From NCBI GenBank assembly GCA_030038395.1, contig JASHOZ010000068.1:1-48211 (forward strand): 48,211 bases of DNA. The letters are read 5' to 3'. This DNA comes from Nitrososphaerales archaeon. Its GTDB lineage: Archaea; Thermoproteota; Nitrososphaeria; Nitrososphaerales; Gagatemarchaeaceae. Both the position numbers and the translations under genes were made by a program. The notes beneath the pieces were generated by a model that worked only from the letters and a program-made list of their open reading frames with translations, searched no databases and was not told the DNA's origin. Of the stretch, positions 17,806-25,350 are shown piece after piece (the stretch's first letter is position 1; each line of letters begins with the position of its first letter).

Positions 17806-17813
17806 TTTAAATA
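17806..17813 (+). promoter_or_regulatory. TATA box of the RNA polymerase operon
   Basis: TTTAAATA is a consensus archaeal TATA box. The predicted transcript starts near 17837 in a pyrimidine-rich stretch (CTTCTTTTTGGG) and, unlike many genes here, carries a leader of roughly 45-55 nt before rpoH. Within it, CAGCTA (17864-17869) could pair with TAGCTG (17900-17905), competing with a local hairpin GGCAG/CTGCC (17892-17907). Confidence 0.65.
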
Positions 17814-17892
17814 CGAGTCGGAAACCGCTTCTTTTTGGGCCCTGCGCATTGTATTGTGCACGTCAGCTAGTATTTTCTGTAAATGGGGGTAG

Positions 17893-18198
17893 GCAGGCTT
17901 AGCTGCCCCGAAGTCCGCGCCCAAGAAAGCTGTTAGGAGAAAGAAGGTCGAAGACGAGGTCGCGCCTTTCAAGATAAGCACCCACTTCCTAATCCCAAAG
18001 CACGAGCTCCTGACGAAGGATGAGGCGCAGCAGGTCCTCGAGAGGTATCACGCTTCTCCCAGTCAGTTGCCCTACATTCTCGCCACGGACCCGCTAGCGA
18101 AGGAGATAGGGGCGAAGCCTGGAGACCTCGTCAGGATATCGAGGAGGAGCGAGACGGCGGGCTCCAGCACATACTACAGATACGTGGTGGAGAACTGA
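17893..18198 (+). CDS. rpoH: RNA polymerase subunit H (start unresolved)
   Basis: The frame downstream of TAG 17890-17892 encodes a basic N-terminal stretch (APKSAPKKAVRRKK) and then a complete RpoH/RPB5 C-terminal domain: HFLIPKHELLTKDEAQQVLE, QLPYILATDPLAKEIGAKPG, DLVRISRRSETAGSSTYYRY. RpoH is the small jaw subunit of archaeal RNA polymerase. There is no ATG, GTG or TTG in frame before the conserved domain. The nearest ATG (17883) is in another frame and stops at 17934-17936. A +1 shift somewhere between 17893 and 17933, for example at CTT-A-GCT or in the CCCC run at 17906-17909, would join them. The gene ends 2 nt before rpoB. Conservation shows it is functional, so an assembly indel or a non-standard start is likely. 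Confidence 0.85.
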   Translation, partial: AGLAAPKSAPKKAVRRKKVEDEVAPFKISTHFLIPKHELLTKDEAQQVLERYHASPSQLPYILATDPLAKEIGAKPGDLVRISRRSETAGSSTYYRYVVEN

Positions 18199-18200
18199 CA

Positions 18201-21200
18201 GTGAACAGACAGGCAAGATCCAGTTCGTGGATAGTGCTGCGGGACCTTCTCGAAAGGGAGGGGGTTGCGAAACAGCACCTGAACAGCTACAACGAGTTCG
18301 TCTCCAGGGGCCTTCAGAACATAGTGGACGAAATCGGCGAAGTCGAGGTGGAGACCGTGAGCACCCCGTACAAGATCAAGTTCGGCAGAGTCACTCTCGG
18401 CTCCCCTAGGGTGGTCGAGATCGACGGATCCGTGAGCAGCGTCCTCCCGATGGAGGCGCGGCTCCGCAACCTGACCTACTCGGCGCCCATTCTCCTCGAG
18501 ATGACGATTGAGGAAGAGGGCCTCCCCCGGGACACCGCCCGGCAGCACATCGGTGACCTCCCCGTGATGGTGAAGTCGGAGCTCTGTCAGCTCTCGACGC
18601 GCTCCAAGGAGCAGTTGATCGAGGCGGGGGAGGACCCGAACGACCCTGGCGGGTACTTCATAATCAACGGCGCCGAGCGGGTGATCGTAGGCCTCGAGGA
18701 CCTCTCCCCCAACAAGATCCTGGTAGATGCCGAGAAGGTCGCAGGCGCCACCACCTACAAGTCGCGCGTGTACTCTTCGGTCGTCGGGTACAGGTCCAAG
18801 CTGGAGCTGACGCTGAAGCAGGACGGCGCGATCAACGTCAAGGTTCCGAGCTGCCCGGTTGACCTCCCGTTCGTCATCGTGATGCGCGCCCTCGGCGTCA
18901 AGTCTGACAAGGAGATCGCGGACGCCGTGTCACCAAAGTCGGAGATCCAGGACCTGCTGGAGGTCTCCTTTGACAAGGCCGGCGAAGCACCGACGGACAA
19001 GGACTCTCTGGTGTACATAGGGAACAGGGTCGCCCACGGCATGCTCGAAGAGTTCAGAGTGAAGCGCGCGCAGTCCATGCTCGACTGGGGTCTGCTGCCT
19101 CACCTCGGGAAGACAGACGACAGGAGGTACGACAAGGCGATGTTCATGGGCGAGGCGGTCTGCAAGCTGCTTGAGCTGAGGCTCGGGTGGATAGGGCCCG
19201 ACGACAAGGACCACTACGGAAACAAGGTGATCAAGTTCGCGGGGCAGATGCTCGCTGACCTGTTCAGGACCGCCTTCAGGAACCTCGTCAGGGACATGAA
19301 GTATCAGCTGGAGAGGACGGGCCAGAAGCGTGGCGGGAACGTCGTCGGGGCGGCGATACGCACCGGCATTATCACTGACAAGCTGAACAACGCGATTGCA
19401 ACTGGGAACTGGGGACGGGGGAAGGTGGGGGTCACACAGCTACTTGACAGGACGAACTATCTGAGCACGCTCAGCCACCTCAGACGCGTTCAGTCGCCCC
19501 TCAGCCGTAGCCAGCCGAACTTCGAGGCGAGGGACCTTCACGCGACGCACTTCGGGAGGATCTGTCCCTCGGAGACGCCGGAAGGCGTGAACTGCGGGCT
19601 CGTGAAGAACCTGGCCCTCTCGGCGATCATCTCGGTGGGCGTTCCGAGCCAGGAGGTAGAGGAGAAACTGTGGGAGCTTGGCGCGAGGCAGATCCGCGAC
19701 GCCGACCAGAAGCTCCAGGTTGGAGGGTGCAGGGTGTTCATGGACGGCAGGTTCCTCGGCTACGTCGACGACGGCGAGAGGCTAGCAAAGGCATTCAGGA
19801 AGCTCCGTCGCGAAGGGCAGATCAACCCCAGCGCTAGCGTCCTGTACGTCTCGCCGATGAACGAGAAGGCCTACCCAAGGCTGTACATCAGCCTGAGCTC
19901 GGGGCGGGTACTCAGGCCGCTCATCGTTGTCGAGAGCGGGAGGCCCTTGCTCGACAGCGTGCTGATCGAGAAGGTGGACTCCAACCAGATGTCCTGGCGC
20001 GAGCTCGTCGAGCGCGGGGTCGTGGAGCTCATAGACGCGAACGAAGAGGAGAATCTCCTGGTCGCAATGGGAGCAGACGACGTAGGGACGAGGAACACCC
20101 ACATGGAGCTCTTCCCCGCCGCCATGTTCGGGATCGCGGCTTCCATAATCCCGTACCCAGAGCACAACCAGTCGCCGAGGAACACGTACGAGTCGGCGAT
20201 GGCGAAGCAGAGCCTTGGGTTCAGCTCGCCCACCTATCCCATCTCACCGCACGTCCGGCAGCACCTTCTGGTTAGCCCGCAGGCCCCCATGGTGAGGACG
20301 AGGACCCTCGACCTTCTCAAGATCGACGAGCGCCCGCTCGGGCAGAACTGCGTTGTAGCGGTCCTGTCGTTCGAGGGATACAACATAGAGGACGCGATAA
20401 TCATGAACAGGTCGAGCGTCGAGAGGGGGCTCGCGAGGTCGTTCTTCTACAGGCTCTACGAGGGGGAGGCGAAGCAGTACCTCGGTGGTATGCGGGACAC
20501 CTTCGAGGTCCCGGCGGCAGAGTCCAACATCAGAGGGTACAGGGGGGAGAAGTTCTACAGACTCCTCGAGGGGGACGGCGTCGTCGCGCACGAGTCGCAG
20601 GTGACCGGGGGAGACGTGGTGATCGGCAGGACGAGCCCTCCGAGGTTCATGGAGGAGTACAAGGAGTTCGAGATAAAGGGCCCGTACAGGAGGGACACTT
20701 CGGTCGCCGTCAGGCCTTCGGAGACCGGCGTCGTAGATTCGATCTTCATGACCGAGAACGTCGAGGGCGGAAGGATGTTCAAGGTGAGGGTCAGGGACAT
20801 GCGCGTCCCAGAGATAGGAGACAAGTTCGCCTCCAGGCACGGGCAGAAGGGGGTGATAGGGCTCGTCGTCCCGCAGGAGGACATGCCGTACACCGCGGAT
20901 GGAGTCGTCCCCGATGTCATAATCAACCCGCACGCATTCCCCTCCAGGATGACCGTCGGCCAGTTCATCGAGTCGATTGCGGGCAAGGCGGGCTCACTGC
21001 GCGGCTCCCCCATCGACGGGTCCGCTTTCGCGGGGGAGAACATCGACGGCCTCGAGAAGATCCTGAAAGAGAGAGGGTTCGAGCCCACGGGACGCGAGGT
21101 GATGTACGACGGGAAGACGGCGAAGAAGTTCGCTACAGACGTGTTCGTCGGGGTCGTCTACTATCAGAAGCTCCACCACATGGTGGCCGACAAGATCCAC

Positions 21201-21554
21201 GCGAGGGCGAGGGGGCAGGTGCAGATGCTGACGAAGCAGCCGACAGAAGGGCGCGCTAGGGGAGGGGGCCTCCGCTTCGGCGAGATGGAGCGCGACTGCC
21301 TGATTGCATACGGGGCGTCGATGGTCCTGAAGGACAGGCTCCTCGACGAGGCCGACAAGACTGAGATCTACGTCTGCGAGAAGTGTGGGCTGATAGCCTA
21401 CTACGACGCCAAGCAGAGGCGGTACACCTGCAAGATAGATGGCGACCAGTCGAAAATCTCCACCGTCGTGGTCGCGTACGCGTTCAAGCTTCTTCTACAG
21501 GAGATGATGAGCCTGAACATCGCGCCGAGGCTCCAGCTGAAGGACAAGGTGTAG
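18201..21554 (+). CDS. rpoB: DNA-directed RNA polymerase subunit B (unsplit)
   Basis: The 1117-residue RpoB is a single polypeptide, as in Crenarchaeota and Thaumarchaeota, rather than split B''/B'. It contains the protrusion/lobe region, the fork (RRVQSPLSR, then HFGRICPSETPEGVNCGLVKN), the hybrid-binding region (GQNCVVAVLSFEGYNIEDA, then GDKFASRHGQKGVIG) and the anchor (TKQPTEGRARGGGLRFGEM). It forms the second half of the polymerase active centre. The C-terminal zinc ribbon shows CEKC and a third Cys, but the fourth position is Asp (YTCKIDGDQ), so zinc binding may be altered. The start is GTG 18201, overlapping no gene. Confidence 0.98.
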   Translation: MNRQARSSSWIVLRDLLEREGVAKQHLNSYNEFVSRGLQNIVDEIGEVEVETVSTPYKIKFGRVTLGSPRVVEIDGSVSSVLPMEARLRNLTYSAPILLEMTIEEEGLPRDTARQHIGDLPVMVKSELCQLSTRSKEQLIEAGEDPNDPGGYFIINGAERVIVGLEDLSPNKILVDAEKVAGATTYKSRVYSSVVGYRSKLELTLKQDGAINVKVPSCPVDLPFVIVMRALGVKSDKEIADAVSPKSEIQDLLEVSFDKAGEAPTDKDSLVYIGNRVAHGMLEEFRVKRAQSMLDWGLLPHLGKTDDRRYDKAMFMGEAVCKLLELRLGWIGPDDKDHYGNKVIKFAGQMLADLFRTAFRNLVRDMKYQLERTGQKRGGNVVGAAIRTGIITDKLNNAIATGNWGRGKVGVTQLLDRTNYLSTLSHLRRVQSPLSRSQPNFEARDLHATHFGRICPSETPEGVNCGLVKNLALSAIISVGVPSQEVEEKLWELGARQIRDADQKLQVGGCRVFMDGRFLGYVDDGERLAKAFRKLRREGQINPSASVLYVSPMNEKAYPRLYISLSSGRVLRPLIVVESGRPLLDSVLIEKVDSNQMSWRELVERGVVELIDANEEENLLVAMGADDVGTRNTHMELFPAAMFGIAASIIPYPEHNQSPRNTYESAMAKQSLGFSSPTYPISPHVRQHLLVSPQAPMVRTRTLDLLKIDERPLGQNCVVAVLSFEGYNIEDAIIMNRSSVERGLARSFFYRLYEGEAKQYLGGMRDTFEVPAAESNIRGYRGEKFYRLLEGDGVVAHESQVTGGDVVIGRTSPPRFMEEYKEFEIKGPYRRDTSVAVRPSETGVVDSIFMTENVEGGRMFKVRVRDMRVPEIGDKFASRHGQKGVIGLVVPQEDMPYTADGVVPDVIINPHAFPSRMTVGQFIESIAGKAGSLRGSPIDGSAFAGENIDGLEKILKERGFEPTGREVMYDGKTAKKFATDVFVGVVYYQKLHHMVADKIHARARGQVQMLTKQPTEGRARGGGLRFGEMERDCLIAYGASMVLKDRLLDEADKTEIYVCEKCGLIAYYDAKQRRYTCKIDGDQSKISTVVVAYAFKLLLQEMMSLNIAPRLQLKDKV

Positions 21555-21561
21555 ACAAAGG

Positions 21562-24500
21562 ATGTCGATGGAGCAGGCCCTCAAGACGATTCGCGGGATA
21601 GACTTCGCGCTCTTCTCGCCGAGCGAGGTCAGGAAGTACTCAGTCGCTGAAGTGACTCAGCCCGAGACGTACGACGAGGACGGGATGCCCGTGCAGGGGG
21701 GGCTCATGGACAGCAGGCTTGGGACTCTCGAGCCGGGGCAGAAGTGCGGCACGTGCGGGAGCACGGCGGGACGGTGTCCGGGTCACTTCGGGCACATCGA
21801 ACTCGCGGAGCCGGTCCTCCACATCGCGTTCGTCGATGAAATCAACAAGCTCATCCAGACGACCTGCAGGACGTGCGGAAGGATCCTCCTCCCTCAGCAG
21901 GAGCTCGACGCATACAGGACGAGGCTGTCCAACAGGACCGACTTCAGTCCGGCGCTGGTCGACGAGGTCGCCAAGGAGATAACGACGAAGGCGAAGAAGG
22001 TGAAGCTCTGCCCCCACTGCGGGAAGCAGCAGTACCAGATCGAGTTCACGAAGCCCACCATCTTCCACGAGATCACGGAGGAGGGGGGCGCGACGCGGTT
22101 GCTCCCAGTCGCGGTCCGTGAGAGGCTCGAGAGGATAAACGACGAGGACCTGGCGCTCCTCGACTTCAACGCGAAGGCGGCCAGACCCGAATGGTTCGTC
22201 CTGCAGGTCCTCCCTGTCCCGCCGCTCACGGTGAGGCCGTCCATCACCCTGGAGTCGGGGATCAGGTCAGAGGACGACCTGACGCACAAGATAGTCGACA
22301 TACTGAGGGTGAACCAGCGTGTAAGGGAGAGCAAGGAGTCTGGGACCCCGCACCTCATCGTACAGGATCTCGTGGACCTGCTGCACTACCATGTCACCAC
22401 CTACTTCGACAACGAGGTCTCAGGGATTCCGCAGGCCCATCACCGCTCTGGGAGGCCCCTGAAGACGCTCAGCCAGCGGCTGAAGGGGAAGGAGGGGAGG
22501 TTCCGCGGCTCACTTTCTGGGAAGCGCGTCGACTTCTCCAGCCGCACAGTGATTAGCCCTGACCCGAGCCTGGACATAGGGGAGGTGGGCGTCCCCTTCG
22601 AGGTCGCGAAGAAGCTCACCATACCCGAGAAGGTCTCGCAGGGCAACATCGAAGCCCTCAAGCAGCTCGTCGTCAAGGGCCCGTTCGAACACCCTGGAGC
22701 GAACTACGTGATCAGGCCTGACGGGGTGAAGATCAGGCTCGACTTCGCGAGCGACAGGAAGGCGCTCGCTGACACGCTCGCCCCCGGATACGTGGTCGAG
22801 AGGCACCTGATGGACGGGGACGTGGTCCTGTTCAACAGGCAGCCGTCGCTGCACAGGATGTCTGTCATGGCGCACTTCGTTAGGGTCCTCCCGTACAGGA
22901 CATTCAGGCTCCACCCATCCGTCTGTCCGCCGTACAACGCGGACTTCGACGGCGACGAGATGAACCTCCACGTCCCACAGAGCGAAGAGTCGCGCTCGGA
23001 GGCGCTGATGCTCATGAAGGTGCAGGACCAGATACTCTCGCCGAGGTATGGCGGGCCAATCATAGGGGGGATACGGGACTTCATCACGGGGGCGTTCATG
23101 CTGACGAGGGATGAGACTATGCTCACTCCGGGCGAGTTCTCCAACCTAGCTCTGGTGGGTGGGTACGAGGGCGACCTCCCAGACCCTGCGGTGGGAGGGG
23201 CACACCCGATGTACACCGGAAGGCAGCTGTTCTCGCTCTTCATACCGAAGGGGATGAACTGCGTTCTCACCTCCAAGTGGGCGAAGTCGTCGAAGACGGC
23301 CCCAGGGGGGGACGTCGTCATCAAGGACGGGCAGCTCATATCGGGGGTCGTCGACAAGGCAGTCATCGGAGCCGAGGAACCAGACTCGCTCCTCCACAGG
23401 ATCGCCAAGGACTACGGGAACGAGGACGCGAGGAACTTCCTGAACTCCATCCTGAAGGTCCTGAAGACGTACCTGACGCGGAGGGGCTTCACGTACGGGT
23501 TCAACGAGCTGGAGCTTGCCCCAGACGCGAAGGACGGGATCAGCGGCGCACTCGACGAGGCGTACGCGGGGGTCTCCGAGCTGATCAAGAAGTACAAGGC
23601 CGGAACGCTGCAGCTCACACGGGGGCTGTCCCCCGAGGACTCGCTCGAGGCGTACATCGTGAACGAGCTCGCGCGGGCGAGGGACAAGGCGGGGCGCATC
23701 GCAGACAGGTCGTTCCCTCCGGAGAACTCCGGCATGATAATGGCAAGGACGGGCGCCAGGGGGTCGAGCCTCAACGTGGGGCAGATGACCGCGGCGCTTG
23801 GCCAGCAGTCGGTCAGAGGGAAGAGGATAGAGAAGGGCATGCGGGGGAGGGCGCTGAGCCACTTCCCCTGGAACGACCCGGCACCAGAGGCGAAGGGGTT
23901 CGTGAGGAGCAACTACAGGGACGGCCTCTCTCCCACCGAGTTCTTCTTCCACGCCATGGGAGGGAGGGAAGGGCTCGTAGACACCGCGGTCAGGACCCAG
24001 CAGAGCGGTTACATGCAGAGGCGGCTCGTCAACGCCCTGGAGCACCTCAAGGTCGAGTACGACCTGACTGTGAGAGACCCACACGGCCACATCATCCAGT
24101 TCCTGTACGGAGAAGACGGGGTCGACCCAGCGAAGAGCGACCACGGCCGGCCGATCAACCTCGACCGGCTGGTCGAGACCGAGGAGCTGCTGCACAAGTC
24201 CAGGGCCAAGCTGGACACGGAGACAGTCCAGAGGCTCCTCAAGAAGTACCAGCCGCGCCTCAACGAAAGACTGTCGCGCGAGCTGGAGGAGAAGCTCAAG
24301 AGCTCCAACCTGTCGGAAGAGGGGGCGAGGGAGACGCTCGAGAAGGTGGACGACGCTCAGGACTACTCGAGGGTGGAGCCGGGCGAAGCGTCCGGCATAG
24401 TCGCGGCTCAGTCGATAGGCGAGCCCGGGACCCAGATGACCCTGAGGACGTTCCACTTCGCCGGCGTCAGGGAGCGGGACGTGACCCTGGGCCTCCCGAG

Positions 24501-25350
24501 ACTGATGGAGCTCGTTGACGCCCGCAAAATCCCGGCCACGCCGTCGATGGATATCTACCTCACAAAGGAGTATGCCTCGTCCAACGAGAAGGCGCTGAAG
24601 GTGGCGAAGGAGATCCTCTTCAGCAAGGTGGGGAACGTCGTCTCGTTCAGCGAAGTCGACCCGACGGAGGGGATCAAGCTCCACCTGAGCCCGGAGATGA
24701 TGGCCGACAGGGACACCAACCCGGATGAGCTCAGGGAGGTCATTGAGACTGGGAAGCGCAACGTCCAGCCCGACAAGAGGGACAGGAACATCATCCACGT
24801 CAGCATGGAGAACGCAGACCTCTCCGCCCTGTTCACGCTCAGGAACAAGATACTCAACATGAAGCTGAAGGGCATCCCGGGGATCACGCGGGTCACCGTC
24901 GTCAAGGAAGGGGACGAGTGGTTCATACAGACCGCCGGGTCGAACCTTGGGAAGGTGGTCCTGGTGCAGGGGGTGGACCCGTCGAGAGTGTACACCAACA
25001 ACGTTCACGAGGTCGCGCAGGTCCTCGGCATCGAGGCCGCGAGATCTACCCTCGTCCGCGAAGTGATGAGCACCCTGGACGAACAGGGACTGGAGGTAGA
25101 CATCAGGCACGTCTTCCTAGTCGCCGACCTCATGACGTCGAAAGGGTACATCCAGCAGATAGGGCGCCACGGGATTGCGGGGGCGAAGAGCAGCGTGCTT
25201 GCAAGGGCGGCATTCGAGATCACCGTCCCCACGCTGGCCGAGGCGGCTGTCAGGGGCGAAGTGGAGGACCTGAAGGGGGTCACCGAGAACGTAATCGTAG
25301 GACTCCCGATCCCGGTGGGGACCGGGATGATAGACCTCTACATGAGTTGA
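21562..25350 (+). CDS. rpoA: DNA-directed RNA polymerase subunit A, A' and A'' fused
   Basis: One 1262-residue frame carries both the A' part (residues 1 to about 900) and the A'' part (about 900 to the end), which are separate genes in most archaea. Visible are the N-terminal zinc ligands (CGTCG and CPGHFGH near 62-78), a second Cys set (CRTC, CPHC), the lid/rudder region (GKEGRFRGSLSGKRVDFSSR), the catalytic NADFDGDEMN with Asp461, Asp463 and Asp465 that bind Mg2+, the bridge helix (YRDGLSPTEFFFHAMGGREG), and the trigger-loop region in A'' (EPGTQMTLRTFHFAG). The ATG is 7 nt after the rpoB stop, and the stop overlaps rpl30e by 1 nt. Fusion is typical of Thaumarchaeota. Confidence 0.98.
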   Translation: MSMEQALKTIRGIDFALFSPSEVRKYSVAEVTQPETYDEDGMPVQGGLMDSRLGTLEPGQKCGTCGSTAGRCPGHFGHIELAEPVLHIAFVDEINKLIQTTCRTCGRILLPQQELDAYRTRLSNRTDFSPALVDEVAKEITTKAKKVKLCPHCGKQQYQIEFTKPTIFHEITEEGGATRLLPVAVRERLERINDEDLALLDFNAKAARPEWFVLQVLPVPPLTVRPSITLESGIRSEDDLTHKIVDILRVNQRVRESKESGTPHLIVQDLVDLLHYHVTTYFDNEVSGIPQAHHRSGRPLKTLSQRLKGKEGRFRGSLSGKRVDFSSRTVISPDPSLDIGEVGVPFEVAKKLTIPEKVSQGNIEALKQLVVKGPFEHPGANYVIRPDGVKIRLDFASDRKALADTLAPGYVVERHLMDGDVVLFNRQPSLHRMSVMAHFVRVLPYRTFRLHPSVCPPYNADFDGDEMNLHVPQSEESRSEALMLMKVQDQILSPRYGGPIIGGIRDFITGAFMLTRDETMLTPGEFSNLALVGGYEGDLPDPAVGGAHPMYTGRQLFSLFIPKGMNCVLTSKWAKSSKTAPGGDVVIKDGQLISGVVDKAVIGAEEPDSLLHRIAKDYGNEDARNFLNSILKVLKTYLTRRGFTYGFNELELAPDAKDGISGALDEAYAGVSELIKKYKAGTLQLTRGLSPEDSLEAYIVNELARARDKAGRIADRSFPPENSGMIMARTGARGSSLNVGQMTAALGQQSVRGKRIEKGMRGRALSHFPWNDPAPEAKGFVRSNYRDGLSPTEFFFHAMGGREGLVDTAVRTQQSGYMQRRLVNALEHLKVEYDLTVRDPHGHIIQFLYGEDGVDPAKSDHGRPINLDRLVETEELLHKSRAKLDTETVQRLLKKYQPRLNERLSRELEEKLKSSNLSEEGARETLEKVDDAQDYSRVEPGEASGIVAAQSIGEPGTQMTLRTFHFAGVRERDVTLGLPRLMELVDARKIPATPSMDIYLTKEYASSNEKALKVAKEILFSKVGNVVSFSEVDPTEGIKLHLSPEMMADRDTNPDELREVIETGKRNVQPDKRDRNIIHVSMENADLSALFTLRNKILNMKLKGIPGITRVTVVKEGDEWFIQTAGSNLGKVVLVQGVDPSRVYTNNVHEVAQVLGIEAARSTLVREVMSTLDEQGLEVDIRHVFLVADLMTSKGYIQQIGRHGIAGAKSSVLARAAFEITVPTLAEAAVRGEVEDLKGVTENVIVGLPIPVGTGMIDLYMS

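Follow-up and report, generated by a model that had tools for sequence, protein, structure and literature searches.

In the archaeal genome described here, translation of rpoH, the gene for RNA polymerase subunit H, most likely starts at a non-canonical UUA codon, which a strong Shine-Dalgarno sequence would position in the ribosomal P site, a reading to which we assign a probability of roughly 0.8 from comparative sequence analysis. The non-standard start is probably real and inherited, and neither a sequencing error nor a frameshift. The window, that is, the whole stretch of 48,211 nt that was analysed, is contig C23 of a draft genome of 1.49 Mb in 69 contigs. The nearest named relatives of this genome are metagenome-assembled Thaumarchaeota/Nitrososphaerota, and several record names point to acidic soils. 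Judged by these names and by PMC10640624, it probably belongs to the family Gagatemarchaeaceae.

Identity of rpoH and the missing canonical start

The product of the open frame matches PF01191 (Rpb5_C) with an E value of 1.5e-29 over residues 26-98, and PDB Rpo5 chains are its solved homologues. Together with the adjoining Rpb2 and Rpb1 genes, the Rpb5 C-terminal domain identifies the protein as the archaeal RNA polymerase subunit H (Rpo5), encoded by the first gene of rpoH-rpoB-rpoA (Table 1). A reading of rpoH as the bacterial heat-shock sigma factor was ruled out, because the window's genome yielded no sigma-70 region 2. The gene is present in a single copy in this genome and in every same-genus genome in which it was found.

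Table 1. Features at the start of the rpoH-rpoB-rpoA genes, in window coordinates
Feature	Position	Strand	Basis or remark
TATA-like element TTTAAATA (relatives TCTAAATA)	17806..17813	+	conserved in same-genus loci; putative promoter
Conserved leader (GGGCCCTG, TGTATTGT, TAGT...)	17837..17880	+	column conservation
Putative upstream open frame of 17 codons, from TTG/GTG to a TAG that overlaps the start of rpoH	17849..17902	+	open in all loci read
ATG out of frame with rpoH and not its start; lies within the conserved ATGGRGG element	17883..17885	+	missing in G015 and G012
Shine-Dalgarno sequence GGGGGT	17885..17890	+	pairs with the 16S 3' end of G004
In-frame stop TAG before rpoH	17890..17892	+	TAA/TAG at the homologous place in 25/25 same-genus loci
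Putative start codon TTA (UUA)	17899..17901	+	column codons across loci; coding signature begins here
rpoH (Rpo5), 99 aa and stop TGA	17899..18198	+	PF01191; PDB Rpo5 chains
rpoB, next gene, GTG start	18201..21554	+	Rpb2 domains
rpoA (Rpb1-type subunit), next gene, ATG start	21562..25350	+	Rpb1 domains 1-5

The rpoH frame (positions equal to 1 mod 3) runs from the in-frame TAG into the Rpb5_C domain without meeting an ATG, GTG or TTG, the codons after the TAG being GCA GGC TTA GCT GCC CCG AAG TCC GCG CCC AAG AAA GCT GTT AGG AGA AAG AAG GTC GAA GAC GAG. The first-pass annotation of this DNA had pointed out that rpoH lacks a standard in-frame start, and its description proved exact to the base. 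For comparison, we collected 25 rpoH loci from 31 genomes of the same genus and one of a sister genus, giving 26 loci. Each same-genus locus carries an in-frame TAA or TAG two codons 5' of a fixed alignment column. Between this stop and the conserved tail a canonical start is absent from 20 of the 25 loci, in 16 of the 25 none is met all the way to the domain, and the sister-genus locus (n=1) likewise lacks one. The lack of a canonical start thus appears in the alignments far beyond what chance would give. Window and relatives can be aligned codon for codon (TAG GCA GGC TTA GCT GCC CCG AAG vs TAA ACC GGC ATA GCA GCG CCG AAG), and the alignment of the relatives' rpoH leaders, which had been proposed earlier as a check, indicates that the missing start is inherited and that no indel separates the window from its relatives. 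Because of this codon-for-codon agreement, the extra C that had been suspected in a run of C is not present in the window. A sequencing or assembly error might have been suggested by the draft state of the genome and by this run of C, but the same architecture, again with no indel, is found in 24 independently assembled genomes of the same genus, of which one is a single contig. Judged by these relatives the error is already refuted, and we regard its probability as negligible.

In other genera of the family, rpoH has an ATG (g5, g7) or a GTG (g2, g6). The ATG of the g7 species lies one codon 3' of the homologous column, behind the same Shine-Dalgarno sequence, so loss of the canonical start probably took place in the branch shared by the window's genus and L016.

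The start column and its Shine-Dalgarno sequence

All 26 loci carry GGRGG (GGAGA in two of them) exactly 9 nt before the start column, and the 16S 3' end GGATCACCTCCTTA is complementary to GGRGGT. The codon in the column is ATA in 20 loci, TTA in three, TTG in two and GTA in one, so that most column codons (AUA in most loci, UUA and GUA) correspond to the usual starts AUG, UUG and GUG with A in place of the final G. The TTA cases lie on different branches of the rpoB tree, many forks of which are weak. In the G004 genome, TTA accounts for 0.6% of the codons for Leu, GTA for 8.3% of those for Val and ATA for 18.7% of those for Ile (ATC 71%), and ATA, TTA, GTA and TTG together make up 8.8% of the Ile, Leu, Val and Met codons. 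As NUA and TTG are uncommon in G004, the column does not look like an ordinary hydrophobic position, for which ATC, CTC or GTC would be expected. The two loci with TTG, a normal start codon standing exactly in the column, belong to two sister species (L019, L024), and every locus continues after the column with Ala, Val or Thr, the kind of residue that should follow an initiator Met.

The boundary between non-coding and coding sequence was located with a synonymous ratio, observed over expected, which was calculated from single-base codon differences between species. The two codons preceding the column give a ratio of 0.61, the three successive blocks behind it give 1.91, 2.08 and 2.63, and by this measure the substitution pattern switches from non-coding to coding exactly at the column. 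The N-terminal tail that follows is variable in length, whereas the 9-nt spacing in front is invariant. An ATG or GTG lies 6 nt upstream of the column in three species (L003, L014, L025), only 3 nt after the Shine-Dalgarno core. In some relatives, GTG valine codons occur within the tail, at positions that are not conserved. The A in the third base of the column could be constrained by the overlapping UAG stop of the upstream frame and not by start function.

From the spacing to the TATA-like element, transcription probably starts near position 17837. The leader that follows shows nucleotide conservation throughout the genus but neither a conserved fold nor a coding signature: a comparison with Rfam gave no family match and no known riboswitch, and the consensus fold was no better than that of column shuffles (z 0.32). 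A leader hairpin with the arms GGCAG and CTGCC, described in the first-pass annotation, is indeed present in the window, but is found only in some of the sequences and is not conserved.

Alternative readings and a possible mechanism

As noted before, an ATG in another frame (Table 1) could join the rpoH frame if one base were skipped, for example at AGG-CTT-A, and this part of the earlier description was confirmed. The sequence recalls the CUU-AGG-C site of Ty1 and the +1 sites of bacterial prfB, and the ATG is present in most loci, in the reading frame that a single skip would link to rpoH. Unlike in Ty1 and prfB, the site is neither conserved nor needed, and the closest counterpart of prfB in the genus is top6B, described below. 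Relatives read CGG CAT A, GAA GAT A or others at this place, and since the bases between the ATG and the column vary freely, no slip site can be recognized. The ATG itself is lost in G015 and G012 (AAAGGAGATAG), and its presence elsewhere follows from the conserved ATGGRGG element in which the Shine-Dalgarno sequence is embedded. A conserved zero-frame start followed by a coding stretch before the slip was also looked for; the start is missing in these two species, and upstream of the column the codons change in the manner of non-coding DNA (ratio 0.61). The proposal of a +1 slip at AGG-CTT-A thus finds no counterpart in the relatives, and we consider a programmed +1 frameshift very improbable. 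Shine-Dalgarno-like sequences at about 10 nt upstream stimulate -1 shifts in bacteria, and such a sequence lies at about this distance here, so that a -1 shift at the stop of the upstream frame might fuse the upstream peptide to RpoH. As there is no slippery heptamer and the codons before the stop vary freely, this reading seems to us even more remote. Of the three options put forward in the first-pass annotation, the rare start is therefore supported, a sequence error is excluded by the lack of an indel, and recoding is not supported. RpoH could also start further downstream in the tail at a non-obvious codon, with the conserved upstream codons translated rarely or never, as the domain begins about 20 codons downstream and a few relatives have GTG in the tail. 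However, the tail codons show the coding pattern from the column onwards (1.91, 2.08) and no tail position is start-like across species, which makes a downstream start improbable.

A further reading gives the codon itself a minor role and takes termination-reinitiation as the main driver, in which the upstream frame stops at UAG 17900-17902 and ribosomes restart at the overlapping UUA. In each of the 26 loci this frame ends in a UAG, UAA or UGA that overlaps the start column, and its first codon toggles only between GTG and TTG. The geometry N-UAG corresponds to A-UGA in the -4 nt overlaps (ATGA) of Haloferax volcanii and E. coli, which are coupled in the archaeon (PMC10666635). In contrast to these overlaps, the upstream frame of rpoH has only 17 codons with no coding signature and the start is not AUG, GUG or UUG. 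Its synonymous ratio is 1.26, compared to 1.41 for another frame of the same bases and 2.50 for rpoH. A translated 17-codon leader peptide is thus not supported, and the frame was kept only as a possible coupling element. In addition, conservation of the overlapping stop is weak evidence, as NTA followed by a purine makes a stop automatically. We regard reinitiation as the main driver as a tentative possibility, which refines the start at UUA 17899-17901 and does not replace it.

For the start at UUA, we propose that GGGGGU pairs strongly with the 16S rRNA and would hold the 30S subunit, with the GGGGG core ending 9 nt upstream of the UUA. NUA codons might then be accepted in the P site by the initiator tRNA despite the mismatches, at low efficiency, and the weak start would probably throttle the synthesis of RpoH. 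Ribosomes that finish the short upstream frame at the overlapping UAG, UAA or UGA possibly assist the start. Against a CAU anticodon, UUA makes a single Watson-Crick pair, and codons of this kind initiate poorly in E. coli. Even ATT reaches only about 0.3% of the best start, as quoted in PMC10666635. In Sulfolobus and Pyrococcus, aIF1 acts against codons other than AUG (PMC6237735), so the lineage would either accept a low yield, rely on coupling or have an adapted initiation. Loss of aIF1 as a cause was ruled out, as the SUI1 domain is present in G000 (the window's own genome), G004 and G015; the aIF1 (SUI1) gene itself has a GTG start. A search of G004 with ARAGORN and tRNA-model matches did not find the initiator tRNA and returned one CAU tRNA, which is elongator-like; the initiator tRNA was probably missed because of introns.

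Well-studied genes with starts outside AUG, GUG and UUG are few and mostly bacterial. Similar to rpoH, E. coli infC, coding for IF3, is an essential gene with a conserved non-canonical start (AUU) behind a Shine-Dalgarno sequence, and its weak start serves control (PMC5472188). Unlike rpoH, infC is bacterial and codes for the fidelity factor itself, whereas rpoH codes for an RNA polymerase subunit and has an NUA codon. The Streptomyces sigR gene is another transcription gene with a conserved non-canonical start, GUC, which lowers its output relative to the next gene and was misannotated as tools take only ATG, GTG and TTG (PMC5472188). In contrast to rpoH, sigR depends on bacterial IF3, for which archaea use aIF1 (PMC6237735). 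The conserved weakness of the rpoH start suggests a throttle on RpoH like those of infC AUU and sigR GUC, and with it translational control of RNA polymerase assembly. Our literature search found no start other than AUG, GUG or UUG described for archaeal rpoH or for this lineage. A core subunit of RNA polymerase that keeps AUA, UUA and GUA throughout a genus would offer a test of how start selection based on aIF1 copes with mismatches, and gene finders restricted to ATG, GTG and TTG are expected to miss or truncate rpoH here.

Other non-canonical starts and a putative shift site in top6B

In a partial survey of starts, G004 was compared with about 0.9 Mb of its relatives (parts of G008, G015 and the window), which gave 519 conserved ORF pairs. 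An NUA start was seen only for rpoH, and the other genuine genes without a canonical start were a TRAM-domain gene (ACG) and top6B (CTG). Of the remaining raw flags, most merely shadowed overlapping genes or tRNAs, and one fell on a ThiL-like ORF, a doubtful case. The TRAM-domain gene (L256-L275; G004:C1:370798-371055+, G000:C44:69244-69492-) has ACG in the start column, in the context CTA GGA TGT GAA ARR ACG AGT TTC GGA CGA, in 17 of the 18 loci with a readable leader, and ATG in the same column in the window's own genome. In the start column of top6B (L286-L313), CTG is found in most genomes (CTG AGC or CTG AGT), TTG in G000, G019 and G010, and ATG in G002; most genomes have a Shine-Dalgarno-type sequence at a similar distance. 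Non-canonical starts thus recur in the genus, and as parallels they speak for the start proposed for rpoH. One might speculate that a relaxed start-codon identity is normal in the genus (AUA, UUA and GUA in rpoH, ACG in the TRAM-domain gene, CUG in top6B), that the start is set mainly by the Shine-Dalgarno spacing and possibly by the overlapping stop, and that some members decode top6B via a programmed +1 frameshift, although we consider this broader proposal rather unlikely. In a single comparison, an S-adenosylhomocysteinase-like ORF in G015:C1 (g15a minus strand, 169407-170712) likely starts with ACG, 9 nt after GAGGGG, and has TTG in G004.

Outside the window, top6B, which codes for DNA topoisomerase VI subunit B, carries an extra T in 12 genomes (GAR TTC TTT C TAY CGN; L302-L313, including G004:C1 near 1341615+), and 16 others are in frame at this place. 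Coding is retained on both sides: AEISPSEFF is read in one frame and the sequence from YRNRD on in the following one. Past the site, the zero frame meets a stop after three or four codons. The site looks like a programmed +1 frameshift at UUU-C in an essential gene. The 12 genomes are not monophyletic (AU test, p 1.6e-37), which implies repeated loss or gain of the site, a behaviour also known from the +1 site of bacterial prfB. The CUA next to UUU-C, in the A site, is an uncommon codon, with 4.4% of Leu codons.
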